Below the pieces are notes generated by a model, which did no database searches, was not told the origin of the DNA, and worked only from the letters and a program-made list of their open reading frames with translations. From a virus, in IMG/VR virus record IMGVR_UViG_3300034109_000594, positions 1-48,890 of that record: a stretch of DNA of 48,890 bases, one strand, 5' to 3'. This document shows positions 14,419-34,264 of this stretch, one piece after another. Position 1 is the first letter of the stretch, and every line of letters begins with the position of its first letter. Both the position numbers and the translations under genes were made by a program.

Positions 14419-14421
14419 CGG

Positions 14422-16905
14422 TCACTCCACTGCTGCGGAGTCGTCTGAGCCCACGCCACCAGCGGCGGGCGGCCTCGTGCCTCGGAATCGGTGATACCAC
14501 TTGGCTGCGTATGCTCTGTCCTTGATGCCGTGCTGGCGCGCCAGATCAATGAACTCTCTCTCGGAGAGCGGCGGCGGAGCAGGCTTGCCAGCCGCAGTCG
14601 CGGCCTCCACCTCCTGCTGCTTCCCGATCACCATCTTCCAGAAGAAGAACGCTTCGGCAGAGCCCGACGAGACGCTGCCGCTGGCGAGCCGCGACCACGC
14701 ACGGTCTCCGAGCACGCTTCGCACTCGATCCTTCGCGTCGACCTCGCCCATGCCCTGCGCCTCAAGCGCGTGCTGGGCGGCGGCCACCATCGTGTCGAAT
14801 GACGATCCCGGCGGCAGCGAATCGACTGCGTCGTGGACCGTGACGGCGAGCGGGTCTGGCTCCTTCTCTTCCGCCGGAGCCCGACCGCCGCTTGCGTTCG
14901 CCTCCGCCTCGGCCTTGTGACGGGCAGACTCCACCGTGGCGTGGGCGGCCAGTTCGGCCTGCGCCATGGCGGGCTGGCCCATCATGGTGTAGGCGTGAGC
15001 CCGCTGCTGCGGCGTGGAGTTGGGGTCGTCGATGACCTTCCGGGCCGAAGCGGCCATCGCTGCCGGGTGCATGTTGGATTCGCGGTGCCGGTTCGCCGTC
15101 TCGCGCTGGCGGTTGTTGTGCTCCGTGACCGAGTGGATCATGTTCTGCCCGGCCTCGTACACCTCGGGCGACACCATCCCCGTGTCAACGCCCATCTGCT
15201 GGGCGAACGTGTCGAGGTCGATGTTGCGTGCCCGGTACTTGGCCTCGTGGAGCCGATACTTCGCAGCGGCGGCCTTGAACTTGCGGTCCATCATGTCGGC
15301 CGCTTCCTGCGGCGGAGGCCCCTTCGCGCCCGACTCCAAGTGCTCGGCGAGCGCGGCCTCACCAGCGGCGTCGGCAGCGGCACGATCCGCCACGTTGCGA
15401 CGACCGGCGGCGAGATGAGCGGGCTCGGCGGGCGGAGGAGCCTTGGCCTCGGCATCCTTGGCCGCGAATGCTGCGAGGAGGGCCACATCCTCCGCGGCAG
15501 CCTTGGCCGCGGGCGGGATGTCGGCCACAGGCGCGGGCTCCGGGTTCACGCCCATCGCGATGTTGTGGGCATCGACGGCGCTCTGGCGGGCAGCGTCACG
15601 ATCCTTGCCGCGTCGAGCAGCGAGCCGTGCTCCGCCCATGCCGTCAGGGCCGCGGTGCTCGGGGAAGGCCATCTCGGGGGCGAAGCGGTTCTCGTACGCG
15701 CCGACGCCGTGCTTCTTCGCGAAGTCTTCCTTCTCGTCCTCGAAGTCGACCTTCTCGTTGTGCTCGGCAACGCGGCCCTCGAACTTCTTCTTCGAGTCGT
15801 CGTCGAGGTACGTGTACTCGATCGAGACCTTGTGGCCCGTCGCGGTCTGAATCTTGACCGTGCCGGTCTCCGGATCGTAGGAGTGAATCTGGCCGTCGAA
15901 CGCATGGGCGCCGTCGCGGGTGGTGAACCGCTCGAACCCGGGGACCGGGGGCTTCCGGGGATCAACCCGCGGAGCCGGTCCCTTCGGGAGTGGCGGCGGG
16001 ATGCGGCCGGGCCGACCGTTACCGGCCGCGGGTGCCGGAGGCAGCCCCGGCTCGACCGGCCGCTGGGGGCCTCGCGCCGGAGCCTTCATGCCGATCGTCG
16101 GATTCGGCACCATGGCGAGGGGCGTCTCCGTACCGGCGACGGCCGCGGGCATGACGCGGTTCGCGGGCTTCTGGCCCTCGACGCCACCTGCGAACCTGCC
16201 GCCGCCGGGCACGGCCCACCGGGCCTCCGGGGTCCGTTGCAGTGCTTCCACCGCGAGCGGATGCGCCTTCGAGTTGGGGTTGTTCGCGACGATGATCCGC
16301 AGTTGCTCGCCAGCCCACGCCGCAGGGTCGGGCATCCCGGCTGCATCTGCTGCATCGACGAGTTTGTTGTGGAGCCAGTCCTTGCCGAGCACATGCCAGT
16401 CGCGGTTGCGCTGCTCGCGCGGATCGACGGGGCGCGCTGCCTGCCGAGCGGGCGCTTGCCGAGGCGCAGGCGCGTTGGGCGCTGCCCTTGGAGGGGCGGG
16501 CTGCGCAGCAGGTGGCGGTGCGGCCGGTCTGGCGGCGGGCCGAGGGGAGTAGTTCGGCGCCTTCGTGGGGTCTCCGCTCGTGTTCGGGTAGAGGTTGCGA
16601 CCGGCGGGGTTCGCGGCCATGTCGCCAGCCGTGTACTCGTCGATGCCGACGCCGCTCGGCAGCGGGATGGCGGGGTGCAGGCGCCCCATCGCCCCCGCGT
16701 TCGTGCCGCCGACGAGGGCGTACATGCGGTCGCTGTCGCCAGAGGTGGACGGGCTCCACGGTGCGGGTGCGGGCTTCGGCGCAGAGAGGTCCGTGACGGA
16801 GCCGTCCTCGTTGTAGGACAGCGTCCGGGGAGGCGGCGGGCCGCCCGGCTTCCCCTCACGCTCGGCCTTCATCCGGCGGATGCGATCTTCAGCGGTCTCG
16901 GCCAT
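14422..16905 (-). CDS. Proline/alanine-rich putative internal virion protein, 827 aa
   Basis: The N-terminal 180 residues are Pro/Ala/Arg-rich and probably disordered (PAAPPPAAQPAPPRAAPN). The middle has a globular piece (FERFTTRDGAHAFDGQIHSY, then TGTVKIQTATGHKVSIEYTYL, about 305-345) that reads like a small beta-barrel. Long Ala-rich helices follow, and the end (about 690-815) is helical (LPPGSSFDTMVAAAQHALEA, EREFIDLARQHGIKDRAYAA). No enzyme motif was seen. It starts eight bases after the preceding gene's stop and is followed by the 1240-residue gene after 3 bases; all three giant proteins probably act together in genome delivery (inference). Confidence 0.55.
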   Translation of the reverse strand: MAETAEDRIRRMKAEREGKPGGPPPPRTLSYNEDGSVTDLSAPKPAPAPWSPSTSGDSDRMYALVGGTNAGAMGRLHPAIPLPSGVGIDEYTAGDMAANPAGRNLYPNTSGDPTKAPNYSPRPAARPAAPPPAAQPAPPRAAPNAPAPRQAPARQAARPVDPREQRNRDWHVLGKDWLHNKLVDAADAAGMPDPAAWAGEQLRIIVANNPNSKAHPLAVEALQRTPEARWAVPGGGRFAGGVEGQKPANRVMPAAVAGTETPLAMVPNPTIGMKAPARGPQRPVEPGLPPAPAAGNGRPGRIPPPLPKGPAPRVDPRKPPVPGFERFTTRDGAHAFDGQIHSYDPETGTVKIQTATGHKVSIEYTYLDDDSKKKFEGRVAEHNEKVDFEDEKEDFAKKHGVGAYENRFAPEMAFPEHRGPDGMGGARLAARRGKDRDAARQSAVDAHNIAMGVNPEPAPVADIPPAAKAAAEDVALLAAFAAKDAEAKAPPPAEPAHLAAGRRNVADRAAADAAGEAALAEHLESGAKGPPPQEAADMMDRKFKAAAAKYRLHEAKYRARNIDLDTFAQQMGVDTGMVSPEVYEAGQNMIHSVTEHNNRQRETANRHRESNMHPAAMAASARKVIDDPNSTPQQRAHAYTMMGQPAMAQAELAAHATVESARHKAEAEANASGGRAPAEEKEPDPLAVTVHDAVDSLPPGSSFDTMVAAAQHALEAQGMGEVDAKDRVRSVLGDRAWSRLASGSVSSGSAEAFFFWKMVIGKQQEVEAATAAGKPAPPPLSEREFIDLARQHGIKDRAYAAKWYHRFRGTRPPAAGGVGSDDSAAVE

Positions 16906-16912
16906 TCGTCAC

Positions 16913-19900
16913 CTAGTCGGAGTAGATCGAACCGGGCCTGCCGACGCGGGAGTTCTGCGCCCGCAACATGGCCGCGCGAGACCGCTGCGCCCTCGCCTCC
17001 CTTATGGCACGGAGGGCGTCAACCTCATTCATCATCGGGGCGGCTGCGGCCGGAACGTCGGGGGCCACCGCCGGGGCGTCCTCCTCCCAACTCGGCGGCG
17101 GGCCGAGCACGTCCGGAACGGTCGGGAACATGGCCCGATAAGCAAACGGAGCGGCAAGGCCAGTGGTCACGACGGCCCCGGTCGTCCACCTCCCGGGGTT
17201 CTCGGGGACGCTGCGGATGATTCCGCGGATGTTGTTCGCAGTCCTGTCCCAGCCCCGCTCCTCGAACACTGTCGACGGCACCGGCTGCTGCGGGGCGCGC
17301 GGATTCGGGGGCTGGAAGTTCGGGTCGAACGGGTTGGCGGACGGGGTCAGCGAGCCGGGGTTCAGACCCGGCAGCGGGTTCGGGTGCGGAGCGGGCCGCT
17401 GTGCCCGGGGCCGCTGCGGCACGAAGTTCGGGTCGAACGGATCGGCGGCGGGGAACAGCGATCCGGGGGCGAGCCCCGGCAGCGGGTCCTGATGAGGGGC
17501 GGGGCGAACCAACTGCTGCGGCGTGAGGCCGTGGTACTCCGGCCGCATCCCGGCCGTGGAGGACCACGGGTTGCCGGGCGACGGCGGCGGCGGGGCGTCC
17601 GGCCCGAGACGGTCCACGGGCGTGTGGTAGTCGTCGTACCCGATCCGGTTCAGGAAGTCCTCGAACGACTGGTCGGCAACGACGGGACGCTCCGGCCCGA
17701 ACATCGGGAACGGGCCGTAGTCACCTGCCGGTGCGGCGGCGCCACGGCGAGCGAACGGCCAGCGGTTCATGTCGTCGGCCGAGGCGATCACGCTGGCAGG
17801 CGGCTGCGACGGCGGCGGGGCGCTCGGCACGACAGGCGCGGCGGCCCGCCCCTTGCCAGCCCGGGGCGTGGGAGCCCCCTGACCGGCGTCCGGCGTCTTC
17901 TGCGGAGGCGCAGCGGGCGGGGCTCCGGCGGCAGGTGGCGGCTCGGCGGCGGGCGCAGCAGCCTTGCGGGGCTTGCGGGCCGCCTGCTCCCGGCGGACGG
18001 AGGCCGCGAGTTCGCTTTGCGGCGGAACGGCCGCGAGGGCCCCCGGGTCGTACCCGTTCGGGTCGATGCCCATGAGGTCCGCATCGGTCGGCCCGGCGTT
18101 GTCCGTGCCGCGGAGTTCGTCCGCGAACTGGCTCATGCCGACGTCACGATCGGTGCCGCGGAGGGCGCGCTCCTCGGGGGACCAGCCGCCACGCACCGCC
18201 TCTTGGCGGGACTCAACGGTGGTTCCATCGTCGCGACCTGCCGCCGCCTTCATCTCGGACTTCGGCGGCTGCACGGCGGGCTGGCCGGGGCGGCGCTGGC
18301 GACCCGTGGGAGGCGGAACCGGAGCCAGTTCGGCGTTGGGGTCGCGGATCACCTCATCCCCGTCCCCGTCGGCAGGGGCGGTGGTCACCTTCGTGCGCGG
18401 CGGCTTGCGGCCACCGCCAGACGTTTGGGTGCGAGCAGGCGCAGTGGTGATCGGCGGAAGCGGTTTGGTGACCGGAGCCTCGGTCGATCCGACGCTGGCG
18501 CTGGCCCCTTCGAGCGGCTGCACGGTCCCCTTGTCGACTGACGACGACGGCGAGGACTCGCGGAGCGGGAACTCGTCGCCCGGCTGCGACACGGTGGCGC
18601 CCTGCTTCGGGCCCGGCCGGGCCTTCAGGCGCTGGTCGGCGCGCGACCGAGCGCGATCTCGGAGGAAGTCTTGCAGCGACGGGCTCGGGCCGGGCTCGAC
18701 GGGCGGCCTGCTCACGGGGGTGCGGTCCGAGTCGCCGCGGATTGCCGCCACGTCGGCGTCCTCGACGTACTGCGGCATCTTGTTCGGCGTGCGTCGACCG
18801 TAGCCAGCCACGAGCGCCTGCGCCACTCCATGGACGGCGTCGTTGTTCGCGGTTCGTGAGACCTTGGGGCCAGCGAGGTCTCGGTCAGCGATGGCCTCGC
18901 CGATCCGGTACGCAATCTCGTACGCCTCTTCGTCAGAGTCGGCGGCGGAAATGGCCTGAAGGAAGGACTCGCCCTCCTTGGGGTACACCTTCACGGTCGC
19001 CTGCTGGGCTGCGGCGAACCGATCGGTCGGCGACTGCGTGCTGCTGCCCCCGGTCCGGTTGTACGTCTTGCCGTGATCGATCCGGGCCTCTTCGACCTCG
19101 TCCGGCGAGAGCCGCTTCGCAGACTCGGCGGCGTTGGGATTGAACCCCGCGGCATCGGCTGCGGTGTTCATGCGGCGAACGGAATCGGGGACGGCGTTCC
19201 TGATCTGCTCCTTGGTGCCCGGGACGATCCCCTTCGGCAGGAGGTTGTCGTCGTCGCCGTAGACGCGGCGGCGCCCGGTCCCGTCCACGTTGGCGGCCTG
19301 CTCTGCGGCCCGCACCTTTTTGCGGTCGTAGAGCCCGTCCTTGGTCGTGTCGTTCTTGAAGAGGTCCGGGTCGTCCTTCAGCAACTGCCGGACCTGCGCG
19401 GACGTCATCTTGTCGCCCGCCTTGACCTCGACGGCGCCGTTCTTTCCCCGGAACGTGAAGTCGTACGGGGCGGCTGTGCCTCGTCGCTCATCGATCACCA
19501 AGTTGGTGATGCGCGACAGGTAGCCGTCGGACTGCGGGCCGCCGATCTTGCCGATGCGCGAGTCTCGGGCTCGCGTCTCGGGCTTCAGGGACGTCTCGCT
19601 GATCGGACGCAGCGGAACGGGGCGGTCGATCGTGATCGTGCGGGCCTTGGTCTTCGGCGGATCGAGGTCGTTGGCGTCGATCTCCGGCTCTCGGAGGATC
19701 ACCTCATCGTCCGGGGTGCCGATCTCCGTGGTGCGGGGTGCGACCGGGAGTGCCTTGCTGCCGTCGTCTCCGCCAGCGATCACCTCACTGCCACGGGTCT
19801 CCCTGCCGGTGCCTCGCCAGCCGCCCCGATCGAGCGGCGGGTTGATGTCGAGAGGGCCAGCGCCAGCGGGCCCGGGGTTGCGGCGAGTGCGTCGGTTGAT

Positions 19901-20479
19901 GTCGCCGGGCCGCGTCTTACCCTCGGCTCGGCGCCGGGCGTCGGTCACGTTTTCGAGAGCCCGGCCGGTCTTCGCGACGTCGCGCTTCTCGTTCTTCTCG
20001 CCCTCGACCTCGACCTTCTTGCGCACCGACTCCATGGCCCGGTCGGGCATGTCGTACTCGTCGTTGCCTCCGCGCTTGCCCGGCTCCTCCGGGGCGGTCG
20101 TGGCCTTCGGGGCATCCTTGGCGGGGTCGAAGTCCTTGGGCTTCACACCGAAGGCGACGTGGTCGAACTGCTGCCCCCACAGTTTGTTCTGCTCGTACAG
20201 GCGGCGGCGTATGACGCCCTTGGTCTTGGCTTGCATGCCGCGGAACTTCTCCTGACCGTCCACGGTCTGAAGCATCTCGTGCAGTTCTTCGGCGGCGGTG
20301 TTCTCCCAGTCGGCGGGTCGGACAGGCTCGGACACGGGCTTGCGTGCGCGCCCACGGCCCTCCGTGCCCGGGGCACGGGGGCTCTTCTTGCCGATCTCGT
20401 CGGCCTTGGCAGCAGCCGCGAGGTTCTCCTCGACGTACCGCTGGATGTTGGTCGCTGCGCCGCGAAGCCCACCTGCCAT
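16913..20479 (-). CDS. Low-complexity putative internal virion protein, 1188 aa
   Basis: The protein begins with a charged helical region (about 1-200, Lys/Glu-rich) and has a mid part that may fold (SRITNLVIDERRGTAAPYDF, then a Lys-rich stretch to about 400). A roughly 400-residue Pro/Ala/Arg-rich disordered stretch follows. Near residue 1010 a 36-residue unit occurs twice in tandem (RPAPHQDPLPGLAPGSLFP and RPAPHPNPLPGLNPGSLTP). A hydrophobic segment TTGAVVTTGLAAPFAYRAMF near 1115 could enter a membrane. A disordered chain plus a late membrane segment would suit a protein threaded through a narrow portal, but this is inference. No known domain was recognised. Confidence 0.55.
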   Translation of the reverse strand: MAGGLRGAATNIQRYVEENLAAAAKADEIGKKSPRAPGTEGRGRARKPVSEPVRPADWENTAAEELHEMLQTVDGQEKFRGMQAKTKGVIRRRLYEQNKLWGQQFDHVAFGVKPKDFDPAKDAPKATTAPEEPGKRGGNDEYDMPDRAMESVRKKVEVEGEKNEKRDVAKTGRALENVTDARRRAEGKTRPGDINRRTRRNPGPAGAGPLDINPPLDRGGWRGTGRETRGSEVIAGGDDGSKALPVAPRTTEIGTPDDEVILREPEIDANDLDPPKTKARTITIDRPVPLRPISETSLKPETRARDSRIGKIGGPQSDGYLSRITNLVIDERRGTAAPYDFTFRGKNGAVEVKAGDKMTSAQVRQLLKDDPDLFKNDTTKDGLYDRKKVRAAEQAANVDGTGRRRVYGDDDNLLPKGIVPGTKEQIRNAVPDSVRRMNTAADAAGFNPNAAESAKRLSPDEVEEARIDHGKTYNRTGGSSTQSPTDRFAAAQQATVKVYPKEGESFLQAISAADSDEEAYEIAYRIGEAIADRDLAGPKVSRTANNDAVHGVAQALVAGYGRRTPNKMPQYVEDADVAAIRGDSDRTPVSRPPVEPGPSPSLQDFLRDRARSRADQRLKARPGPKQGATVSQPGDEFPLRESSPSSSVDKGTVQPLEGASASVGSTEAPVTKPLPPITTAPARTQTSGGGRKPPRTKVTTAPADGDGDEVIRDPNAELAPVPPPTGRQRRPGQPAVQPPKSEMKAAAGRDDGTTVESRQEAVRGGWSPEERALRGTDRDVGMSQFADELRGTDNAGPTDADLMGIDPNGYDPGALAAVPPQSELAASVRREQAARKPRKAAAPAAEPPPAAGAPPAAPPQKTPDAGQGAPTPRAGKGRAAAPVVPSAPPPSQPPASVIASADDMNRWPFARRGAAAPAGDYGPFPMFGPERPVVADQSFEDFLNRIGYDDYHTPVDRLGPDAPPPPSPGNPWSSTAGMRPEYHGLTPQQLVRPAPHQDPLPGLAPGSLFPAADPFDPNFVPQRPRAQRPAPHPNPLPGLNPGSLTPSANPFDPNFQPPNPRAPQQPVPSTVFEERGWDRTANNIRGIIRSVPENPGRWTTGAVVTTGLAAPFAYRAMFPTVPDVLGPPPSWEEDAPAVAPDVPAAAAPMMNEVDALRAIREARAQRSRAAMLRAQNSRVGRPGSIYSD
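17293..17508 (-). repeat. Tandem 108-bp repeat within the 1188-aa gene
   Basis: Two adjacent units of 108 bases (36 codons) encode RPAPHxxPLPGLxPGSLxPxAxPFDPNF-type sequence, written here as a pattern. The 18-base stretch GAAGTTCGGGTCGAACGG occurs at 17315 and 17423 exactly. In-frame duplication indicates recent expansion of a Pro-rich linker. Confidence 0.8.
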
Positions 20480-22205: not shown

Positions 22206-22628
22206 TCACGGCAGGGCGCCGGGGTAGCGGGAGCCGCGGCGAATAGCCAGCGCAATCACCGCTTTCCCCGCGGCGTTTGCGTAGGGAAGTTTCCTCTTGC
22301 CAGCCTCCTCGGCCAGCCACGAGGAGATCAGGTCGACGTTGTCCCGGCACCACTGGATGCCGCGCTGGTCCATTTCTTTGGCCCTGCGGTTGCACTTGCA
22401 GCCCGGCTTCGACGTGATCCCGATCATCTTCAGCAGCCCCTTGAGGGCGGTCCCTGCTCCCGGCGGGGGCTCGGCCTTCGGGGGCCTGACCCGCGGGTAG
22501 GCGGGGTGGGTCTCATCGACAGTCCAGAGGTCCCCGTGCCGGGCGACGACGCAGGGCTCGACCTCCTGCCATCGGTAGCCACGCTCCTTGCATCGAGCGA
22601 TGAACAGGTCTCGGTGTCCTGTGATCAC
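22206..22628 (-). CDS. Hypothetical protein with CKC motif, 140 aa
   Basis: GTG 22628 overlaps the stop of the cysteine-rich gene as GTGA. The protein has an N-terminal segment MITGHRDLFIARCKERGYRW, then a Pro-rich linker, then a compact part GTALKGLLKMIGITSKPGCKC and a helix (RAKEMDQRGIQWCRDNVDLIS). The pattern 'G-T-x-L-K-x-L-L..G..PGCxC..R...M' occurs in small uncharacterised phage proteins. A metal site built from the cysteines is possible. Its place downstream of the cysteine-rich gene suggests a linked virion role. Confidence 0.55.
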   Translation of the reverse strand: MITGHRDLFIARCKERGYRWQEVEPCVVARHGDLWTVDETHPAYPRVRPPKAEPPPGAGTALKGLLKMIGITSKPGCKCNRRAKEMDQRGIQWCRDNVDLISSWLAEEAGKRKLPYANAAGKAVIALAIRRGSRYPGALP

Positions 22629-25285
22629 GGGAAGGGGTTCTCGGGTGGTGGCGTGCAGATCATGCCGGGCTCAAGCGGGTCGATGTATTCGGGGTCCGGC
22701 GGCACGCCCTGCGCACCGCCTAGACCCTGCCAGTAGTACTCCATCTCTGTGCGCTTCAGGAGGCATTCGGAAACGTCTTTCCACTCATTCGCCGCGCAGT
22801 CGTATACGAGCGCTCGGTAGCGAATCCGCGTGGAGTATGTGTCGGCAAGGCCCCCCTCTGCGTTTCCCGCGCATCCGGTCCCGTCCACAAGCGTTGACCG
22901 AGAGGTGCTGGCGATCGCGCGCAATATCCCTATGCGGGCTCCGGCAGCCTCGTACCGGAGCGCTAACTCATAGTTGGCCCAGTTGCAGTCGCAGCCGTCT
23001 CCCTCGCAGTCGTCCACCGGCAGCGGTATTTGCTCGTAGTCGACAGTAAAACTTCCGCCGGGGATGTTCGTGACGGACGTCAGATCGGGCACTCGATTGT
23101 AGGCGCTGATGAAGGGCGAGTTGCACGGCTTGAAGTGTATTGACCCTTCCAGCCAGTCGCCGTCCTGCCGGTCGCTGTTCTGGGCAAAGAGGCACACCGA
23201 GGCGCTGCCGGTGTCGACGGGCTTGTAGGCGCTGTAGGTGAAGCAGTTCGAGGTGCTGATCTGCCACCCGTTCGCACCGCCGCCCGCCTCGCTGTTCGCG
23301 AACTGGAGTTCGTCGTTCAGCGTGTGGCAGTTTGCGCACGGGCCGCAGCAGACCATCGAGCACAGGTCGGTCGGGACCGTGAACCCCGAAACGTCCGCGC
23401 CGTAGGGGTGGCAGGAGTAGTCGTTGGGGTATTCGTAGGAGCAGATGGACTTACTGCACCCCTCCTCGCATTCCTCCTTGGTATTCCAGAAATCCTCGCC
23501 CTGCGGCGCGTAGGTCTCCTCGCACCTGTACGTCGGGATATCGCACGGGGAGCCCGGGTTCGCCTCGCCCTTGCACACCCAAACGAAACATGTGCAGACG
23601 ACGTCGTCGCACTTCGCCCCGCCCGTCCATGTGTACGCGGCGCCGACTCTCGCGGCCTCTTCCCGGCACTGCTCCTCGGTGTATCCGTCGTTGCAGACGG
23701 CGTCCTGATATACACCGCGACACTTCTCAAGCGAGAAGCCGATCACCTTCCACCCGTCCCTGTTGTCCGGGCACACCTCCACGAAGGGCTCGCCGCCCAG
23801 CGCGCCCGTGTCGCTCGTGGAATAAACGTCGCAGCCGTCAGTGATCCATATCTCCTCGTCGTCGGAGGTTTCCTTCACGACGCCGATGCACCCCGCGCCG
23901 TTGGGCGGTTCGTAGAAGTAGACATGCGTCTGAACGCAGGGCCCGGGCGAGCAGTCGCAGTCCCGAATGCAGCAGGCCCCGACCTCCGGATCGCACTCCC
24001 GGTTGCACTCGTCAAGCGTGCCGTGCCATGACAGGACCAGCCCCGGGTCCACGATGTCCTCGCGCGGGACGCATTCATATGTGTCGGTGGTCGTGAGCAC
24101 GCAGCCGTACCGGCTACAGTCGCACGAGATGTCCTCGCACTTTTCTCCGGCGCTCCACCTGTGATAGACCGCCCGGCGCTCTGCCTCCTCCTCGCACTCG
24201 ATCTCCGTGTAGCCATCGAGGCACTCGTAGTACTCCTCCTCGACGCGCTCGCAGTTCTCCTTGGAGGAGCCGACGAGAGACCACCGCCAGTCGCTGCTTT
24301 CGATGTCGTCGCACAGCGAGATGTCGGCGTTGATGTCGCTGTTCTTCCAAACCTCGCAGCCGTTCGAGGCCCAAATCTCCTCGCTGTCGCTGGTCTCCTT
24401 GGTGACTTCGACGCACGCGCCGGTTGAGTCCTTCTCCCAGTACGACCACACCTGCGCGCAGGGCGTCTTCGTGCAGTTGTACTCGCACTTGTACAGGCAG
24501 CAGGCGCCGGTTTCGTCCACGCAGGCATACTCGCACTCCCCGAGCGAGTTGTGCTCGGACAGAACGATCAGCGTCGGGTCTTCGCCCGTTTTCTTGTAGC
24601 ACGCCCGACCCTTGGCAGGGTCCTCTGACTTGTAGGCGCAGACGTACTTGCCCTCGTAGCAGAACTCCTCGCACTCTTTGAGCGAGCCGTGCTCCGTCAG
24701 GATCACGAACGATGGGTCGCCGTCGTCCTTCCGGCAGGCCCGGTCGGCGTCTGAACCGTCAACAGGGTATGCGCAGACGTACCCCTCGTCGCAGTTGTCT
24801 TCGCACTGCTTGAGGCTGTCGTACTCGGCGAGCACGATCAGTTCCGGGTCGATGGGGTCCGTCTTCTTCGAGCAGAAGCGACCCTTGGCCGGGTCGATGG
24901 ACCTGTACGCGCAGACGTAGATGGCATCGCACTCCTCCTCGCACTCCTTCTCCGTGTCGTGCTCCGAGAGGACGATGAGGTTCGGGTCGTCGTCCGTCGA
25001 GGGGTAGCAGGCCCGCTCCGCAGGAGTCTCCGAATCGCGGTACGCGCAGACGTACTGAGTCTCGCAGTTCTTTCGGCACTCCTGCTCGGAGCCGTACTCG
25101 CCCAGCACGGACCCGGGCTCCGTCCCCTTGGGGTAGCAGTCCTTGCCTTCGTCCGGGTCGTCGCTTGCGGATCGGTACGCGCAGACGTACTTCGTGCAGC
25201 ACTTGTTGATGCACTCCATCGCCGCCGCCATGGCGATCTTGCCGCCGCGCATGACGATGGCGCCGTACTTCTGGAGGAGGCTCAT
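22625..25285 (-). CDS. Cysteine-rich repeat protein, 886 aa
   Basis: About 77 of 886 residues are Cys. Residues 33-258 are five tandem units of about 45 residues, each starting YVCAY and ending (V/I)LxEHxSLxECExxC. Residues 257-431 and 433-610 are two larger units, each starting GACC, containing KETSDxEEIW near the middle and ending in an EC(x)3C pair. The C-terminal part (about 660-886) is a separate, less Cys-rich domain. There is no clear signal peptide. The gene lies in the tail region of the structural operon, next to a tail protein, so a disulfide- or metal-stabilised external virion component (fibre or adhesin) is likely. GACC-type repeats recall secreted planctomycete proteins; this is from memory and weak. 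ATG 25285 overlaps the upstream gene. Confidence 0.75.
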   Translation of the reverse strand: MSLLQKYGAIVMRGGKIAMAAAMECINKCCTKYVCAYRSASDDPDEGKDCYPKGTEPGSVLGEYGSEQECRKNCETQYVCAYRDSETPAERACYPSTDDDPNLIVLSEHDTEKECEEECDAIYVCAYRSIDPAKGRFCSKKTDPIDPELIVLAEYDSLKQCEDNCDEGYVCAYPVDGSDADRACRKDDGDPSFVILTEHGSLKECEEFCYEGKYVCAYKSEDPAKGRACYKKTGEDPTLIVLSEHNSLGECEYACVDETGACCLYKCEYNCTKTPCAQVWSYWEKDSTGACVEVTKETSDSEEIWASNGCEVWKNSDINADISLCDDIESSDWRWSLVGSSKENCERVEEEYYECLDGYTEIECEEEAERRAVYHRWSAGEKCEDISCDCSRYGCVLTTTDTYECVPREDIVDPGLVLSWHGTLDECNRECDPEVGACCIRDCDCSPGPCVQTHVYFYEPPNGAGCIGVVKETSDDEEIWITDGCDVYSTSDTGALGGEPFVEVCPDNRDGWKVIGFSLEKCRGVYQDAVCNDGYTEEQCREEAARVGAAYTWTGGAKCDDVVCTCFVWVCKGEANPGSPCDIPTYRCEETYAPQGEDFWNTKEECEEGCSKSICSYEYPNDYSCHPYGADVSGFTVPTDLCSMVCCGPCANCHTLNDELQFANSEAGGGANGWQISTSNCFTYSAYKPVDTGSASVCLFAQNSDRQDGDWLEGSIHFKPCNSPFISAYNRVPDLTSVTNIPGGSFTVDYEQIPLPVDDCEGDGCDCNWANYELALRYEAAGARIGILRAIASTSRSTLVDGTGCAGNAEGGLADTYSTRIRYRALVYDCAANEWKDVSECLLKRTEMEYYWQGLGGAQGVPPDPEYIDPLEPGMICTPPPENPFP
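23456..25189 (-). repeat. Nested protein repeats in the cysteine-rich gene
   Basis: Five in-frame units of about 135 bases (24512-25189) are followed by two in-frame units of about 525-535 bases (about 23993-24517 and 23456-23989). Conservation is at the protein level, in Cys spacing and short motifs such as YVCAY, LIVLSEH, GACC and KETSD; the DNA has diverged. The small-unit ending (EC..C) also closes each large unit, so the larger units may derive from a fusion. Confidence 0.75.
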
Positions 25286-26109
25286 GCGGTGATGTCGGCG
25301 CAGTCAGTGAGAGGCAGGCTGACGACGTCGGCGTCTCGGTCGTCTCCCGCCAGCACGTACGTCTCGCGGCGCTGGAAGTCGATCGACGACGACCCCATCT
25401 CCGCGTTGGTCAGGTACACGATCTTCTTGAGGTCGACGGTGAGATCGTCTGCGTCCTTCGAGCCAAGGAGGAACCCGGACTTGCGGGTGCAGATGACCTG
25501 CGAGTCGTCGACCTTGATGTCGGTGATGACTTCGACCTCTTCGCCGATGGGCTGCAAGAAGTACTGAAGCGACCCGGCCGTGTACCGGACGCGGAGCAGG
25601 TCCGACCTCTGCGACAGAATCTGGAGAGGCCGCCCGTCCAGCCGGTTGTTCCCGAAGACCGCCACGAACCCCGGAGAGCCGTACCCGCGCAAGCCAACTC
25701 GTGCCGTCGTGGGGCCGACCGCGCTCACGTCGATGTACGGGCCGGGGACGATCGAGGTGATCTCGTCCCACGAGCCCTCGCGCCGGGTGGGCCGGAACTG
25801 CTTGCGGGGCTGCTGCGGCTCAACCTCCTCGGGCTGGTTCCTCTTCCGCTTCTTCTCCTCCTTCTCCTCCTCGCGCTTCGGCGGCTTCCGGCGCACGTCC
25901 GGAGGGTCCATCCGCGGGAACCTGTACTTCCGCAGCGGCGGAGTGACGAAGCGGTAGTCGGGCGGTGTGTAGTCGAACGACACGGGGCCGCGATGCACGA
26001 GCGGGGCCGCGCAGTTGGCGATGGCGTGCATCGTGTCGTTGGCGGACAGTGGCGACTGCCCGCCCTCGATGAGCGACTGCTCGATGCGACCGGACTGCTT
26101 GGTGAACAT
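25282..26109 (-). CDS. Putative tail-associated protein, 275 aa
   Basis: ATG 26109 shares a base with the stop of the upstream tail gene. Residues about 65-110 are a Lys/Glu/Arg/Pro-rich linker (KREEEKEEKKRKRNQPEEVE). Residues about 115-275 are beta-rich (SIVPGPYIDVSAVGPTTARV, then VAVFGNNRLDGRPLQILSQRS, then SGFLLGSKDADDLTVDLKKI), which would suit a virion structural domain. No enzyme motif was seen. It sits between the tail protein and the cysteine-rich protein and may connect the two. Confidence 0.55.
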   Translation of the reverse strand: MFTKQSGRIEQSLIEGGQSPLSANDTMHAIANCAAPLVHRGPVSFDYTPPDYRFVTPPLRKYRFPRMDPPDVRRKPPKREEEKEEKKRKRNQPEEVEPQQPRKQFRPTRREGSWDEITSIVPGPYIDVSAVGPTTARVGLRGYGSPGFVAVFGNNRLDGRPLQILSQRSDLLRVRYTAGSLQYFLQPIGEEVEVITDIKVDDSQVICTRKSGFLLGSKDADDLTVDLKKIVYLTNAEMGSSSIDFQRRETYVLAGDDRDADVVSLPLTDCADITA

Positions 26110-28562
26110 CAGGCGACCCCGTACACGTCGAGCGCGTGGATGACGAATGGCCCCGAGTCGGTGCGGTCCGCCGACAACTCCACGGCGACATGCCGGTCGT
26201 TCCCTCGGAAGTCGTCGATGGTCTGCGAGGTGAACAGGGCGCGGCACACGCCGGAGGAGACGCGGTCGGGGAGCAGGCTGGCGTCCATATCGATGGCGGT
26301 GACGGGCTCCTGCGTCTCGTAGCGCTCGCCCGTGCCACGATCCCGGGCGGCCACGTTGATCCGCGGGTACGGCGAGTTGTTGTAGAACAGCCTCAACTTC
26401 ATGGGGCACGGCCCCTGCGTCGGCGTGAACAGCATGGCGACGTTGCGGTGCGTGTCCCGCTGCTCGACGGGCATGGAGTCGTGCGGGTACTCCATGTTGC
26501 CGGTGCGGACCCAGCACGGCACCGGGGTCTTCCCGTCAGCGGCCCGGCATGTGCCGGTGGCCTGCTCGCCGGACTCGGGAGGCTCGATCTCGATCTCGGG
26601 GTCGGTGTATCCGTACCCGCCGCAGCGCACGTACAGCCCGAGCAGCGACCCGTCCGTCCCGACGGCCGCCTCGACCACGGCGCCTGCGCCGTCCCCGGTG
26701 ACGGTCACCTTGGGCGGTCGGCGGTATCCGCTGCCCGGCTCGATCAACTTGGCCTCGACGATCGTGCCGTCGGCCCGGTCGAAGTCGCCGGTGCCCAGCG
26801 CGAGGATGTCCCCATCGCTCGTGCCGTAGACGCACTGGACCGAGCCCGACTCGTCCCGCATGTTCGCTCCGCCCACGAGCGGGGATGCGTAGCGCTCCTC
26901 CCACCAGCCTTGGAACTCGAACGAGTAGCAGTACTGCCGCGTGGGGTAGTCGCCGGGCGAATCGCCCTTGAGGCGCACCGAGATTCGCAGGCACCGGGCC
27001 GAGCGGTCGGCGACGACGGAGAACCACTGCGACTTGGAGAAGTCGATGTCCTCTTGGAAGAGCGTGTTCATCACCGTCGAGATCGGGCGCACGTCCCCCG
27101 ACAGGTCCATGGCGTACACGCCCTCGTTGTCCATGCAGAAGATCGTGCCCTGATACTCGTCCCAGCAGCGCTGGTTCAGGCAGCCCCGGTATGCGGCGAT
27201 CTGCACGTTGGCGTCGATGATCGGCTGAGACACGTACGAGAGCCGGTGGGCGTGACGCGACTGCATGATCCCGAGCGAGGCGCCGTACGGGATCAGCGCC
27301 GTGATGTGGTCGTGCCCTCGCACGTTGGTCTGAAGTACCAACTCGTTGACGTCCGGGCAGGACTCGGGCTCGTTGTACTCGGAGAACCGCAGCACGTTCG
27401 GCTCGCTTCCGCTGGTGTCGACGGCCATCCAGAGGCGGTCCTGATACACGACTGCCACCGCCTTGTCGGACGGCGGCACGCCGAATCGGTTGGCGTTGAG
27501 TTCGCCGTTCGGCAGGAGGATCGGCATGGCCGCGTACCCGTCCCGCTCGTAGTCCGTCAACTCCATGTCCGTCATGTCCTCGACGAACGAGGTGGCGTCT
27601 GGCGGAAGAGTGGCGACCCGGTAGGCAGTATACGCCTGATCACTCGTGGTGCGCCAGAGTTCGATCGCGACGGCCCGGGGCGAGACGACCGGCGGCAGGC
27701 CCCATTCCAGTTGTCCAACGCCGTCCCCGGCATCGATGGTGGCGACCGGGGAGAGGTTCGAGGGCAGGGGGCCGCCGCGGCTCTCTGGCGTGTCGTCGAT
27801 GACCCGGTAGTAGCAGTCGTACTTGCCGCGGATGTGGGCGCGCATGATCGCGTTGGCGATGGCGCCGCCCGTCACGGCCTCGGCCTTCGGCGGGTCGGTG
27901 AAGCCACCGCCATCGGGAATCTTCGGGTCCCCGACTCCGCCGCCCGGTAGCGGCTTCACCGTCACCCGGCCGCCGCCGCCGTTGCCGCCGTACAGCCTGA
28001 CCTCGGGCGGCACCGTGTAGCCGCTGCCGCCCACCACGGTAACGGACTCGACCGGATAGTAGTACCGCCTGTCCGGCGTCTGCGTGATCGGCCTGTCGTA
28101 GCCGATCGGGATCGGGCTCAAGATGGGCGTGATCGTGGCGCCGTCGCCGTGCGTGGCGCCGAGTTTCACGATCGGCGTGTCCGTGTACCCGCGCCCGTAG
28201 TCGACGACGTCGACGCTGCCGACGGCCGAGCCTTCGAGGAAAGCCCGCAGGGTTGCGGCGCGCGCTGGCGGCTTCGTGCCGTGATCGAGAGTGACGTCCG
28301 GCGCCTTGTTGTACCCGGCTCCACCCTCGATGACGTCCACCCGGGCGACGTAGTACTTCGGCGCGCCCGACATAGTGACGGTGGGCGCGGACGCCGGGGC
28401 ATCGACCCCCATGTCCACGACCATGTCAGCCGTCACCGAGCCGGTGCCGGAGATGTCTACGCGGACAGGGCGGTTCCCGTTCCCTTGGAACAGGTAGCCC
28501 CACTGCCTCGGTCCGACGGCCAGCGTGGCTGGCGTGTTGCTGGCGACAGTGCGCAGTAGCAT
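26109..28562 (-). CDS. Tail tubular/stabilisation protein B-like, 817 aa
   Basis: ATG 28562 follows GAGGGATAC and is chosen over an upstream start at 28613. The protein has two parts. Residues about 75-230 carry GxGY units (EGGAGYNKAPDV, YGRGYTDTPIV, GGSGYTVPPEV), with two more near the C-terminal third (PGSGYRRPPKV, CGGYGYTDPEI). The rest is a beta-propeller-like body typical of podovirus tail tube proteins: DRLWMAVDTSG, VRGHDHITALIPYG, SLGIMQSRHAHRLSY, DNEGVYAMDLSG. Such proteins form the short tail nozzle. The usual N-terminal start of the family seems to be on the separate small gene just upstream. Confidence 0.7.
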   Translation of the reverse strand: MLLRTVASNTPATLAVGPRQWGYLFQGNGNRPVRVDISGTGSVTADMVVDMGVDAPASAPTVTMSGAPKYYVARVDVIEGGAGYNKAPDVTLDHGTKPPARAATLRAFLEGSAVGSVDVVDYGRGYTDTPIVKLGATHGDGATITPILSPIPIGYDRPITQTPDRRYYYPVESVTVVGGSGYTVPPEVRLYGGNGGGGRVTVKPLPGGGVGDPKIPDGGGFTDPPKAEAVTGGAIANAIMRAHIRGKYDCYYRVIDDTPESRGGPLPSNLSPVATIDAGDGVGQLEWGLPPVVSPRAVAIELWRTTSDQAYTAYRVATLPPDATSFVEDMTDMELTDYERDGYAAMPILLPNGELNANRFGVPPSDKAVAVVYQDRLWMAVDTSGSEPNVLRFSEYNEPESCPDVNELVLQTNVRGHDHITALIPYGASLGIMQSRHAHRLSYVSQPIIDANVQIAAYRGCLNQRCWDEYQGTIFCMDNEGVYAMDLSGDVRPISTVMNTLFQEDIDFSKSQWFSVVADRSARCLRISVRLKGDSPGDYPTRQYCYSFEFQGWWEERYASPLVGGANMRDESGSVQCVYGTSDGDILALGTGDFDRADGTIVEAKLIEPGSGYRRPPKVTVTGDGAGAVVEAAVGTDGSLLGLYVRCGGYGYTDPEIEIEPPESGEQATGTCRAADGKTPVPCWVRTGNMEYPHDSMPVEQRDTHRNVAMLFTPTQGPCPMKLRLFYNNSPYPRINVAARDRGTGERYETQEPVTAIDMDASLLPDRVSSGVCRALFTSQTIDDFRGNDRHVAVELSADRTDSGPFVIHALDVYGVA

Positions 28563-28569
28563 GTATCCC

Positions 28570-28845
28570 TCACACCGTGACCCCGTCCACGATCGCCAGA
28601 TTCCCCTCGGCATCCATCACGAGGGCCCTGTCCGGCTTGCCAATCCCGCCGGAGAAAGGGAACACCTGCTCGACCACGCCCTCCAGCCCTGACTTGTCGT
28701 ACTTCACCGGGGCCGATCCGCGGCGGCTAGTGAGTTGCCCGGGGATGGCGAGCGTCATGTTGACCTGCTGCTGCATCCCACCCGGCGGAATGGCGTACGG
28801 GCTGGCAGCGAGCACCAGTCCGCCGAACTTTGAGATGCGCAGCAC
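28570..28845 (-). CDS. Small protein like the N-terminus of a tail tube protein
   Basis: The 91-residue product reads FGGLVLAASPYAIPPGGMQQ, then QVNMTLAIPGQLTSRRG, which resembles the first segment of podovirus tail tube proteins ('..N.....PG.L..R.G'). It ends with a beta-rich part containing FPFSGGIGKPDRALVMDAEG. It stops 7 bases before the large tail protein starts, in another frame. So either a tail gene was split in two, or this is a separate adaptor. It begins with ATG 28845 two bases after the upstream gene. Confidence 0.6.
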   Translation of the reverse strand: MLRISKFGGLVLAASPYAIPPGGMQQQVNMTLAIPGQLTSRRGSAPVKYDKSGLEGVVEQVFPFSGGIGKPDRALVMDAEGNLAIVDGVTV

Positions 28846-28847
28846 GG

Positions 28848-29807
28848 TCAGGCCCCGCCGTCAGGGCCGAGCGGTGCGGTGTACACGCCAGCGTACGGCG
28901 CCTGCGTGGCATCGGGCACCCGATCGTACGGCGCTCGGCGGCCGGAGATGGGCGCGATGACGTCTTGCTCCATGGCGAGTTTCAGGTCGCGGGTGTACAG
29001 CGCGACCGCGGCGTCGATGGGCTTGCCGGTCATGCGGGCGACCCACACCTCGGCGCCGGTGAGGACCGCCGTGAACATCCCCGGCGACACGTCGAGGAGG
29101 TCGGAGATCACGAAGCGGCAGTCCGCGTGCGTGGCGTCCATGGGGTTCTCAAGCGTCAGGCTCGCGGGCCCGCCACGCAGTTCGATACGGCTCTGCTCCG
29201 CGTACGGGTAGAAGCCCGACAGCGGCTCGGGATGGTTCTGCGGCGTGCCGACACGGAGCACCGCGCCGACGCAGCGCCCCGGGAAGTTCGTGTTGGTGCC
29301 CGTCACCGAGGTGCCGTTGACCGTGACGAAGCCGGTGCGGACCTGCGTCTCGTAGCCCATCAGCGTCAGGGGCTTCGGGCGACGGCGGTACGTGTACCGC
29401 AGCGTCATGCCCGCGGGCAGTCGGCCGCCGATCTTGAGTTCCCAGCGGTCGAAGTTCTTCGGGTCCGTGGACTTGGTGATCGTCCAGTACAGGGCCTCGC
29501 CGAGCGTCCACGAGTCCTGCTCGCGGCGCACCCACTCGGCGGGGGTGATGTACGCGGTGATCGTCGTGCGATCCTGCGGGATCAGCGCGTCGATGTTCAC
29601 GCAGTCGACGGGCAGCAGGTACGTGTTCTTGTTGGCGTCGATCGTGACCTCGGACTCCGAGACGTACCACAGCCAGTCCTTGGCGTGGGCCACGTCGCGG
29701 TAGGAGTGATGCACGGCAGCGCGCAGGACGCGGTGCTCTTGGTCTTGGGCGCCGCCGCCCACGGACTGCATCAGGTAGTCGATCGCGTCTTGCGCGCAGT
29801 AGTACAT
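28848..29807 (-). CDS. Head-tail connector / tail tubular protein A-like
   Basis: ATG 29807 follows GGAAGGCTGAC; a longer frame to 29831 has no better ribosome site. The 319-residue protein has an N-terminal helix (AQDAIDYLMQSVGGGAQDQE), then DVAHAKDWLWYVSES, and a beta-rich middle (NTYLLPVDCVNIDALIPQD, then PAGMTLRYTYRRRPKPLTLM). A late helical part holds DLLDVSPGMFTAVLTGAEV and DAAVALYTRDLKLAMEQDV. This order (helix, beta region, late helix pair) is that of podovirus connector/gatekeeper proteins that sit under the portal. Confidence 0.65.
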   Translation of the reverse strand: MYYCAQDAIDYLMQSVGGGAQDQEHRVLRAAVHHSYRDVAHAKDWLWYVSESEVTIDANKNTYLLPVDCVNIDALIPQDRTTITAYITPAEWVRREQDSWTLGEALYWTITKSTDPKNFDRWELKIGGRLPAGMTLRYTYRRRPKPLTLMGYETQVRTGFVTVNGTSVTGTNTNFPGRCVGAVLRVGTPQNHPEPLSGFYPYAEQSRIELRGGPASLTLENPMDATHADCRFVISDLLDVSPGMFTAVLTGAEVWVARMTGKPIDAAVALYTRDLKLAMEQDVIAPISGRRAPYDRVPDATQAPYAGVYTAPLGPDGGA

Positions 29808-29808
29808 G

Positions 29809-30015
29809 TCAGCCTTCCTTCGGTCGCACACCGGCCAGACGATCCTTGGCGAACTGGATCACCTCGGGCGTCCAGTGCTGGGCGGCCATGTCCTTCACGG
29901 CTTGCGGGGCATCGTCGGGGAGCGGGCGGGCGGGGTGGTAGTTGCGAGCCCACAGACTGCCGCCACGGTCCTCGATCACGCCGATGGTCATGTTCTTTTG
30001 GAGGGTGACGTTCAT
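29809..30015 (-). CDS. Small hypothetical protein, 68 aa
   Basis: ATG 30015 overlaps the stop of the fibre gene upstream, and the stop lies one base before the connector start. The protein has a strand-like start (VTLQKNMTIGVIEDRGGSLW) and a helix (DDAPQAVKDMAAQHWTPEVI). It could be a small structural or assembly protein. No motif was recognised. Confidence 0.55.
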   Translation of the reverse strand: MNVTLQKNMTIGVIEDRGGSLWARNYHPARPLPDDAPQAVKDMAAQHWTPEVIQFAKDRLAGVRPKEG

Positions 30016-30530
30016 CCGATCCTCGCATCGTCGGTGAGGTAGGTGATGTTGATGCAGGCGCGACCCGAATCGGTCTTCTTGTCTATCACCGCGGCGATGG
30101 CTTCGCCGTCGCCGACGCCAAGCATAGAGGCCAAACCGATGACGCCTTCCGCTGGTTCTACTGACATCACAGGCGCGGCAAAAGCGGCACTCTGAGAAGA
30201 GAGGTTCGCGTCGTAGAACTCCGCACAAGAGAACGGCAGGCCCGAAAATGCGTAGTAGATCGGCGCATCGCCTTCGTCTCTATTATCTGTCCCGAACGTA
30301 ATCGTGAGCGTCACTGCACGGCCAGCCCGAGTCCAGTATCCATCGACTTCAAACGTGCCGTTGAAGGCAGGCGTCCACACCCCGCTGAACTGCGTGTCGC
30401 CCTTCAGCACCAGCAGCCCATCGCTGCCGACCGTGAGGATGTTGCCCGCGTCTTTGCTCGGCTCCGACGGGCCGGGTGGCCCCTTGAGGGATTGCCACCC
30501 GGACCCGTCATGGATGTAGGCGTTCTTCAC
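30012..30530 (-). CDS. Tail fibre-like protein, 172 aa
   Basis: GTG 30530 follows GAGGAGTGACCCG. The N-terminus MKNAYIHDGSGWQSLKGPPG shares its pattern with the next three fibre genes (a short strand, a Gly/Ser turn and a Trp) and runs into a short collagen-like piece. The C-terminal domain (FSGVWTPAFNGTFEVDGYW, then TRAGRAVTLTITF) matches the beta-rich head seen in many phage fibre tips. Likely a trimeric adhesin or fibre on the virion. Confidence 0.7.
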   Translation of the reverse strand: MKNAYIHDGSGWQSLKGPPGPSEPSKDAGNILTVGSDGLLVLKGDTQFSGVWTPAFNGTFEVDGYWTRAGRAVTLTITFGTDNRDEGDAPIYYAFSGLPFSCAEFYDANLSSQSAAFAAPVMSVEPAEGVIGLASMLGVGDGEAIAAVIDKKTDSGRACINITYLTDDARIG

Positions 30531-30534
30531 CGGG

Positions 30535-31182
30535 TCACTCCTCGATCCAGAAGTCCCCGATGGCAGCCGTAGCGGGCTGGGTCGGGCTCTTGGTCACGTT
30601 CACCGAACGGCCATCGGCACCGTCGGCACCAGTTGCACCAGCGGCACCGTCCGCTCCGTCCGACCCCTTCTTGGCGATCACGGTCAGGTTGTCAGGGGTG
30701 ATGACAGCGGCACGGGTCAGCCCTTCGACGATGTAGGTCTCGCCTCCGAACGTGACGATGTCGTTGTTGTCGTACTCCTGATTCGGGTCGAACTCGCCCC
30801 GGAAGTTCAGGCTGACGCCGTCCTTGCCAGCGGCACCGTCGGCACCCGGGGCACCGGCGGCACCGTCCTGACCGGGAGCCCCATCAGCACCGGGGGCACC
30901 ATCGGAACCCTTGGGGCCACGGATGCCGCCGACGTTGTTCCACGCCGTGCCGCTCCAGACGAGGCCGTCGCCGGGGTTCGTGCCAGCCGGGAAGCCAGCC
31001 GGAACCGGATCGGGGACGAGCCACATATCGCCCGTGGTCGGAGCAGCATCCGGCGGGTAGGCGGCGGCGGTGCCCTTGATGGTGACGCCCGAACCGTCCT
31101 TGCCGTCCACGCCGTCCTTGCCAGCGGGGCCGACGATGGAGACCCACGCGCTACCGTCGAAGATGCTGACGTTCTTTGCCAT
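30535..31182 (-). CDS. Collagen-like tail fibre protein, 215 aa
   Basis: The protein starts with KNVSIFDGSAWVSIVGPAGK, continues with two Gly-X-Y runs (GPKGSDGAPGADGAPGQDG and GSDGADGAAGATGADGADG), and between them has a small domain NFRGEFDPNQEYDNNDIVTF resembling carbohydrate-binding CBM5/12-like modules. It ends SVNVTKSPTQPATAAIGDFW, a tail shared with the next gene. Collagen-like runs form trimeric stalks in phage fibres. ATG 31182 lies 11 bases before the neighbouring gene's end. Confidence 0.75.
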   Translation of the reverse strand: MAKNVSIFDGSAWVSIVGPAGKDGVDGKDGSGVTIKGTAAAYPPDAAPTTGDMWLVPDPVPAGFPAGTNPGDGLVWSGTAWNNVGGIRGPKGSDGAPGADGAPGQDGAAGAPGADGAAGKDGVSLNFRGEFDPNQEYDNNDIVTFGGETYIVEGLTRAAVITPDNLTVIAKKGSDGADGAAGATGADGADGRSVNVTKSPTQPATAAIGDFWIEE

Positions 31183-31193
31183 CGCTCTTTACC

Positions 31194-31391
31194 TCAAGGG
31201 GTGTTGCTGATCCATACGTCTCCAGCCTTTGCCGTCGCGGGCTGGGTGTTCTGCACGTTGACTGCGACCGACTCACCGGGGTCGCCCTTGTCACCCTTGT
31301 CCCCCTTGGGTCCGGGCGCACCTCCACCGCTCCCACTGCTTATGGGTTCCCACTTTCCCGTCGCGGCGTTGAAGTAGTAGATGACTGCCAT
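31194..31391 (-). CDS. Short collagen-like fibre protein, 65 aa
   Basis: This is a miniature of its neighbours: N-terminal MAVIYYFNAATGKWEPIS docking-type segment, then PGPKGDKGDKGDPGES (collagen triplets), then VNVQNTQPATAKAGDVWISN, which matches the end of the 215-residue fibre. It lacks any further domain, so it may be a truncated duplicate or a stub adhesin. The start codon and spacing (ATG 31391) are normal. Confidence 0.65.
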   Translation of the reverse strand: MAVIYYFNAATGKWEPISSGSGGGAPGPKGDKGDKGDPGESVAVNVQNTQPATAKAGDVWISNTP

Positions 31392-31394
31392 GGT

Positions 31395-33167: not shown

Positions 33168-33169
33168 AG

Positions 33170-34261
33170 TCAGTAGGCGTATGCCTGTGCCCCGTTGAAG
33201 GAGGTTCCGGTGATCTTGGCGTCCCCGCAGATTGCAATGCCGCCGTCAGGCTGAAATCGCACGAACACGCGACGGTATGCCACGCCGGTTTCAAAGCCGA
33301 ACACCACCACGGTCTGCTCGACGGGCGGTTTCGGGAAGTTGGCCGGGAGCCGCTGCACAGTCGAGAACGAGCCGGTGGCGGTCAAGGTGTAGGCCAACTC
33401 GCCACGCAGTTGGATCATGCCGTTCAGGACTCGGGCTTCGATCAGCCCGGAGCCCAAAACCTTCGTGCAGGCAGTCCAGTCAATGTCTGGCGGGACAGTC
33501 TTGCCGCCCGCCATCAGGGATCGGACGAGTTTTGCCACATGGGCGTCGAGGTCCTTCGTGTCGGCCTTGGTGACGAGAGCGGAAATCTCCACTGCCTTCG
33601 CCACCGGGGTGGACAGCCACAGGTCTCCGTCCTTGCCCGTGGGCTGGCCGTCCTGCTCGTAGACAGCCGGGAGGTCTTCGGCCTTGGCGTAGCCGTCGAG
33701 GTCGACAGTCCCGCCGGTCGCCACGCTGGCGAGAGCCTCGTCCACTTCCGCCTTGGTGTACGTCGTGGCCTTGTCGGCCTTGAGGTCGATCTTCTCTTGC
33801 GTCTGCTTGCCGGTCTCCTCGATGGCAAACACCAACTGACTCTGGACGGCGTCGAGGTCGAGAGCCGACTGCTCCGCCGCTGCCTTGATGGCGGCATCCG
33901 TCTCGGGCTTCGTGTAGTAGTCGTCGAGGTTGGCCGGAGGAATGGCCGCAATGGCGTCCGTGACGAACTGCTCGGTGGCGTAGCCGTTTAGGTCAACAGT
34001 CCCGCCCGTGACCACCCCCGCGATGGCCGCCGTAATGGCCGCATCCACCTCGGCCTTGGAGTACAGCGTGGCGATCTGACCGTCCACGTAGGCGGTCGTG
34101 GCGTAGGCAGACAGGTCTACGGTCTGGAGCCCGCCGCCGGTCGGCAGCGCAGCCAGCAGGGCATCCACCTCGGCATCGGAATAGTAGCCGACGATCCCCT
34201 TGGCCGGGTTGATCGCGCTGGCGAAGTTCTGGTGCGGAGTCGGCCGGTCAGGTGCGGGCAT
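33170..34261 (-). CDS. Tail fibre protein, 363 aa
   Basis: The stalk holds several SKAEVD/TKAEVD units (YSDAEVDALL, YSKAEVDAAI, YTKPETDAAI, YTKAEVDEAL) and VDLxxYA units, the same modules as in the 590-residue fibre. A late part (GSGLIEARVLNGMIQLRGEL, then STVQRLPANFPKPP) is a fibre-tip domain seen in phage fibres that bind host surfaces. The N-terminus differs from the docking motif of its neighbours, starting with a Pro-rich segment. It may form a second fibre type or a distal piece of a composite fibre. Confidence 0.7.
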   Translation of the reverse strand: MPAPDRPTPHQNFASAINPAKGIVGYYSDAEVDALLAALPTGGGLQTVDLSAYATTAYVDGQIATLYSKAEVDAAITAAIAGVVTGGTVDLNGYATEQFVTDAIAAIPPANLDDYYTKPETDAAIKAAAEQSALDLDAVQSQLVFAIEETGKQTQEKIDLKADKATTYTKAEVDEALASVATGGTVDLDGYAKAEDLPAVYEQDGQPTGKDGDLWLSTPVAKAVEISALVTKADTKDLDAHVAKLVRSLMAGGKTVPPDIDWTACTKVLGSGLIEARVLNGMIQLRGELAYTLTATGSFSTVQRLPANFPKPPVEQTVVVFGFETGVAYRRVFVRFQPDGGIAICGDAKITGTSFNGAQAYAY

Positions 34262-34264
34262 GGT

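Follow-up and report, generated by a model that had tools for sequence, protein, structure and literature searches.

A cysteine-rich tail-region protein and its downstream partner form a recurrent two-gene module in uncultured phages

The window analysed here, the whole 48,890-nucleotide viral contig IMGVR_UViG_3300034109_000594, encodes an 886-aa cysteine-rich tail-region protein (22625..25285, minus strand) and, directly downstream, a 140-aa partner (22206..22628, minus strand). The first protein is built from repeats with conserved cysteines. Across environmental phages the two kinds of gene are coupled, sometimes fused and surrounded by tail genes, and a tag at the C-terminus of the cysteine-rich protein correlates with the head domain of the partner. 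On balance we favour a tail adhesin stabilised by disulfides or metal and served by a dedicated chaperone, which docks on the C-terminal tag; in this reading we infer the virion location, the binding of head to tag, the partner's action as a chaperone and the chemical state of the cysteines. Beyond the initial annotation of this DNA, which had singled out the cysteine-rich gene, the decisive context lies in the partner gene, in the tag at the C-terminus and in the wide spread of both. The correlation of tag and head is the most original element of the module.

Gene order and tail context

The window genes described here lie on the minus strand. A capsid-like gene (43515-44636), the terminase (39326-41029), the portal (36878-38968), tail-fibre-like ORFs assigned by eye (30012-35197), an adaptor-like ORF (28848-29831) and an 834-aa tail protein (26109-28613) are followed by an ORF of ~290 aa with an uncertain start (25282..26154), which has no assigned function and belongs to the same operon as the cysteine-rich gene. 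This ORF overlaps the cysteine-rich gene by 4 bases, and the stop of the cysteine-rich gene in turn overlaps the GTG start of the partner gene by 4 bases. The cysteine-rich gene is flanked by adaptor and tail-tube genes on one side and by three large cysteine-free ORFs on the other, with two small ORFs between the partner gene and the latter. These three adjacent ORFs (10696-20479, minus strand; 1240, 827 and 1188 aa) are probably ejection proteins, and their complete lack of cysteine in 3,255 residues contrasts sharply with the nearby cysteine-rich gene.

Neighbouring genes at related loci also point to the tail. Among 121 non-cysteine-rich neighbour proteins we found repeated PHROG matches to tape measure, major tail, baseplate wedge, tail fibre and virion structural proteins, and Pfam matches to LamG (lectin) and Fn3. 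Exonucleases, which speak against a tail role, lie beside the pair at many loci. Two cysteine-rich partners end in PATR repeats. The initial annotation had suggested an adhesin, and this part of it is plausible given the tail-gene position in the window and the relatives elsewhere, whose neighbours encode tape-measure, baseplate, tail-fibre, lectin and Fn3 proteins; it is from such neighbours that a tail location of the 886-aa protein is proposed.

We also observed that a Pirellulaceae MAG (L125, G001) contains phage portal genes 52-53% identical to that of the window as well as CNRA loci, CNRA being the domain of the partner described below. These MAG contigs hint weakly at a planctomycete host.

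Architecture of the cysteine-rich protein

The ORF translation and a unit profile bear out the earlier description of 77 cysteines, five units of about 45 residues and two units of about 175 residues that start with GACC. Cysteine makes up 8.7% of the 886 aa, and, in agreement with that description, no obvious signal peptide is seen by eye at the N-terminus. The protein opens with a hairpin-like segment (residues 1-32, 25190..25285, MSLLQKYGAIVMRGGKIAMAAAMECINKCC...). Residues 33-258 (24512..25189) form five four-cysteine units of 44-46 aa (33-76, 78-121, 123-167, 169-211 and 214-258) with the pattern Y-x-C ... C ... C-x3-C; a profile built from the five gives each of them 65-85 bits. Two large units follow, at residues 259-434 (23984..24511; 176 aa, 18 Cys) and 435-612 (23450..23983; 178 aa, 19 Cys), both with an xGACC start, KETSD[SD]EEIW inside and an EC..C closure. 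The first is closed by a sixth, diverged four-cysteine copy (393-431), which scores 16.7 bits with the five-unit profile. A possible seventh copy in the second (585-610) reaches just 0.6 bits and is recognised by eye from its cysteine pattern. The C-terminal region (residues 613-886, 22628..23449; 274 aa, 17 Cys) ends in ...ENPFP, of which the last four residues, N-P-F-P (883-886, 22628..22639), are the C-terminal tag.

Two homologues in IMG/VR, L002 and L003 (87% and 95% identity), retain all 77 of the 77 cysteine columns. The dN/dS values of 0.33 and 0.23 for the two comparisons indicate purifying selection, and 22625-25285 is therefore a real gene. The whole cysteine-rich protein has no match in Pfam or PHROG. 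A tblastn search of 50,697 named phages likewise returned no match for the cysteine-rich protein, the window partner, the upstream tail protein or a consensus-like CNRA query.

The N-terminal start, MxLxxxNGxLxxxxGxLAxxxxCC, is common to several other cysteine-rich phage proteins, and a hairpin-like segment with closely spaced cysteines at its end begins 38 ORFs, as it does the window protein. We propose that this segment (residues 1-32) serves as a putative virion anchor. In the smaller modules L060, L085, L145, L153 and L200, one gene encodes the hairpin start and the next the GACC/NPLP protein; in the window a single gene encodes both.

A profile of the four-cysteine unit built from the window and two relatives detects more units in other contigs. 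The model of a single unit is a three-stranded sheet with a C-terminal helix that carries C-x3-C (pLDDT 84), and the unit is like Kunitz/BPTI domains in its [FYH]-x5-C-x3-C ending, in the spacing of its last three cysteines and in this predicted sheet and helix. However, it is without the N-terminal part of those domains, including the inhibitory loop region, and has no profile match: 28 four-cysteine units scanned gave no Kunitz match in Pfam (PF00014) or PDB sequences. Foldseek listed many Kunitz inhibitors, none of them significant (E 2.4-9.5), and the VIA fold scores were Z 2.0-2.6 for Kunitz as compared with 5.5 for MbtH proteins. Sequence and fold scores are thus both insignificant; we dropped Kunitz membership and treat the resemblance as a lead.

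The partner protein and its CNRA domain

The partner consists of a head domain (residues ~1-52, 22473..22628, minus strand; ITGHRDLFIARCKERGYRWQEVEPCVVARHGDLWTVDETHPAYP) of the type xHLxxRCxxRGYxxxEVxxCVV...HPxYP and a helical CNRA domain (residues ~57-132, 22233..22460, minus strand; core PGCKCNRRAKEMDQRGIQWC). The CNRA core reads C-x-C-N-x-R-A-x2-M-[DN]-x2-G-x2-W-C, and ten positions are invariant across 45 members. AlphaFold2 predicts a small strand/helix head followed by five helices (pLDDT 96).

We found no PHROG or Pfam match for the window partner, and 45 CNRA domains gave scattered weak matches to PHROG, none of them to a Tfa family. In NCBIfam, CNRA matched aureocin A53 and a TudS-like family, at a level that we judged to be chance (best E ~0.003). 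For the predicted fold, Foldseek against the PDB returned nothing at E<=0.001, and the best VIA score, Z 5.3 to a HAD-type hydrolase, was judged chance-level. The sole significant BFVD match is A0A6J5QC46 from an uncultured Caudovirales phage (E 1.7e-5, 27% identity), an uncharacterised phage protein with a fold like that of the partner that adds no mechanism.

The DNA pattern of the CNRA core is present in at least 119 stretches of viral contigs and in only 5 of 84,980 prokaryote genomes, and a CNRA profile search found the domain in 2 of 294 planctomycete-phylum genomes and 1 of 201 Methylococcaceae-order genomes, the starting genome counted in each. The suggestion that the cysteine-rich protein was captured from the surface of a host is therefore unsupported, because the partner domain, on which this comparison was made, is overwhelmingly viral.

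Coupling of CNRA to cysteine-rich genes

For 95 distinct CNRA loci there was enough upstream DNA to count the coupling. A cysteine-rich ORF lies directly upstream in 68 and is fused in frame in 5, giving 73/95 in total, compared to 6.3% of 870 background ORFs at that cysteine level. The other 22 have no cysteine-rich ORF in the strict upstream window, and in five of these CNRA sits on a long glycosyltransferase ORF.

CNRA ends several such glycosyltransferase proteins of 658-825 aa, with PF00535 (GT2) above its cut-off for L035 and the others assigned by similarity to L035. In L035:1944-3971, L070:6628-8646 and L105:952-3030, a GT2 glycosyltransferase, a methyltransferase-like region and CNRA form one protein, and a cysteine-rich ORF of 1,029-1,044 aa with T-rich linkers adjoins the fusion in each of the three, the related L105 included. 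On a Methylococcaceae MAG contig (L127:482-4128), CNRA is fused to a thioredoxin-like AhpC/TSA protein (PF00578 above cut-off), followed by a cysteine-containing gene with a Tat-like start, seen by eye, and then by a PqqD-domain gene. A motif search near the viral CNRA loci found no adjacent thioredoxin-like genes. These fusions to GT2, to a thioredoxin-like protein and to cysteine-rich proteins fit a docking or maturation domain; alternatively, where CNRA is fused to the cysteine-rich protein, it could stay in the particle as a structural domain.

A C-terminal tag and the partner head

Of the ORFs upstream of CNRA, 30/112 end in P[LFIV]P, nearly always as N-P-[LF]-P, against 3/2,905 background ORFs. 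The tag codons vary synonymously, the stop may be TGA, TAG or TAA, and the tag is retained where the genes do not overlap (L008, L065, L088 and L092). This free choice of codon and stop, together with the retention of the tag across spacers, means that selection acts on its amino acids; an origin of NPLP from overlapping genes or from a ribosome site was rejected on the same grounds. The N-P-[LF]-P tag is found at 28 of 41 CNRA loci with a window-type head and at 0 of 62 without this head (Fisher p=1e-15, in a test that, as below, treats related loci as independent). Several of the exceptions in this first sample, such as ENPFL, QQLP or NDLP, look like tag variants. Tag and head lie on contiguous DNA, and co-inheritance could therefore explain part of their co-occurrence.

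A second sample comprised 70 new loci picked only by their NPLP-stop/MITCH DNA. In this sample 64 of the 69 scorable upstream ORFs are cysteine-rich, and CNRA is present in 46 of the 70 downstream proteins. The initial annotation had called such cysteine density very rare; among this class of environmental phages it is not, as both these ORFs and the 73/95 CNRA loci make clear. Most of the non-CNRA downstream proteins have a CEHL/CGCP ribbon-like domain instead: in L145, L150, L154, L178 and others, a window-type head is joined to the C-terminal domain DICLTCEHL...CGCPV...CPAGKW. In L196 we observed a window-type head with a short CGCAKRQEQLN ending, which has the C-x-C-x2-R-x4-[LM]-[ND] spacing of CNRA.

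A third sample was picked by this unrelated C-terminal CEHL/CGCP ribbon domain. The tag is present at 29/35 loci with the head vs 0/64 without it (p=2e-19, again counting related loci as independent) and in 0/2,388 background ORFs. Five of the six exceptions are recognisable variants, NEFP/SEFP in three cases and PDPPPAC in two, and the PDPPPAC ends go with one divergent head subfamily. Upstream of the CEHL/CGCP ribbon genes in L253, L256, L279, L281 and L212, the ORFs end in IP[YH]EY plus a few residues. Four of these ORFs are 1,868-2,660 aa long and not cysteine-rich, and the one in L212 has 155 aa; their partners start with a CxxC ribbon-like head, possibly making a second tag-head pair.

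Discussion

The arrangement of the two genes matches that of a tail fibre and its chaperone, and we therefore propose the 140-aa protein as a dedicated assembly partner. In cyanophage Pam3, the chaperone gp25 binds the fibre through a variable N-terminal domain, which is joined to a conserved C-terminal domain made of helices (PMC9608196). Alteromonas phages encode the chaperone (V22 gp27, A5 gp9) downstream of the fibre, and these proteins are similar to the intramolecular chaperone domains that other receptor-binding proteins carry (PMC10579305). Like Tfa of phages Mu and lambda, Pam3 gp25, V22 gp27 and A5 gp9, the partner is a small protein encoded beside a putative tail adhesin, directly downstream of cysteine-rich genes whose adhesin role is suggested by their tail-gene neighbours. 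The modelled partner has the same general layout as Pam3 gp25, with a variable N-terminal part that would read the substrate and a conserved helical C-terminal domain; related intramolecular versions stand at the C-termini of other receptor-binding proteins. In contrast to Tfa, the substrates here are cysteine-rich repeat proteins with a C-terminal tetrapeptide tag that correlates with the partner head, and the CNRA body has CxC...WC cysteines and is exchangeable for the CEHL/CGCP ribbon domain. In PHROG, Pfam, Foldseek searches of the PDB (E<=0.001) and VIA, we detected no sequence or fold match of the partner to Tfa and no structural or profile match to any other chaperone. We do not claim membership of the Tfa family because the profile tests are negative. 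By this analogy, the module would be a new variant of the adhesin-plus-chaperone mechanism.

In the mechanism that we propose, the 886-aa protein would be a host-facing, tail-associated string of small cysteine-locked modules, attached to the particle by its N-terminal hairpin. The partner head would read the N-P-[LF]-P-COOH tag (NPFP in the window), and the CNRA domain may keep hold of the chain in its reduced state, or bring in other maturation factors, until the protein is folded or mounted on the tail. The module would then work like a tail fibre with a Tfa-type chaperone, using unrelated sequences and a terminal tag. More tentatively, environmental tailed phages may share an undescribed assembly code in which short C-terminal tags of tail proteins (NPLP, variants such as NEFP and PDPPPAC, and perhaps IPYEY) are read by interchangeable heads of a helper encoded downstream, while the helper bodies (CNRA, the CEHL/CGCP ribbon or others) carry out folding, redox or glycosylation steps for cysteine-rich adhesins.

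Instead of a folding chaperone, the partner could be a platform that targets chemical modification, with CNRA bringing glycosyltransferase, methyltransferase and thiol-redox enzymes to a cysteine-rich, T- and S-rich substrate that is selected by the head-tag contact. Such a role would account for the fusions of CNRA to a GT2 glycosyltransferase and methyltransferase-like region in several contigs and to the thioredoxin-like protein of the Methylococcaceae MAG, as well as for the long T- and S-rich linkers in several cysteine-rich partners. We consider it unlikely, however, as no enzymatic domain is recognised in most partners, including that of the window, and the genes beside the window gene include no evident modifying enzyme.

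It is quite improbable that the NPLP tag and the head are a recombination cassette at a gene boundary, with no physical recognition and a partner that acts on the cysteine modules directly. Conservation is at the amino-acid level with free codon choice, tag and head are both kept where the two genes lie apart, and a variant head subfamily has its own matching variant tags; these points weigh against the contiguity of tag codons and head start, with a 4-base overlap at most loci, and against the CNRA proteins with other heads that also follow cysteine-rich genes lacking NPLP. Secreted inhibitors and toxins typically contain small cysteine-rich units, and the sheet-and-helix model of the four-cysteine unit, with its list of non-significant Kunitz hits, would suit a released or injected effector, such as a protease inhibitor or metal-binding protein, that the partner keeps inactive until lysis. 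The window gene nevertheless lies inside a tail module, related proteins can be as long as 800-1,000 aa and in some cases carry PATR repeats, and the likeness to Kunitz domains falls short of significance in sequence and also in structure (E 2.4-9.5; Z 2.0-2.6), which makes this very improbable.

Our search, confined to open-access papers, found no description of this two-gene module. The pairing, seen in well over 100 uncultured phages, seems to represent an undescribed way of building cysteine-rich proteins. What appeared as an odd single gene thereby becomes part of a module that is common among uncultured phages, is open to testing and includes a partner and a tag. This raises the question of how phages fold proteins of ~9% cysteine that are normally made in the reducing cytoplasm. 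If tag and head bind, adhesin-chaperone pairs could become recognisable from sequence in the phage dark matter where homology fails.
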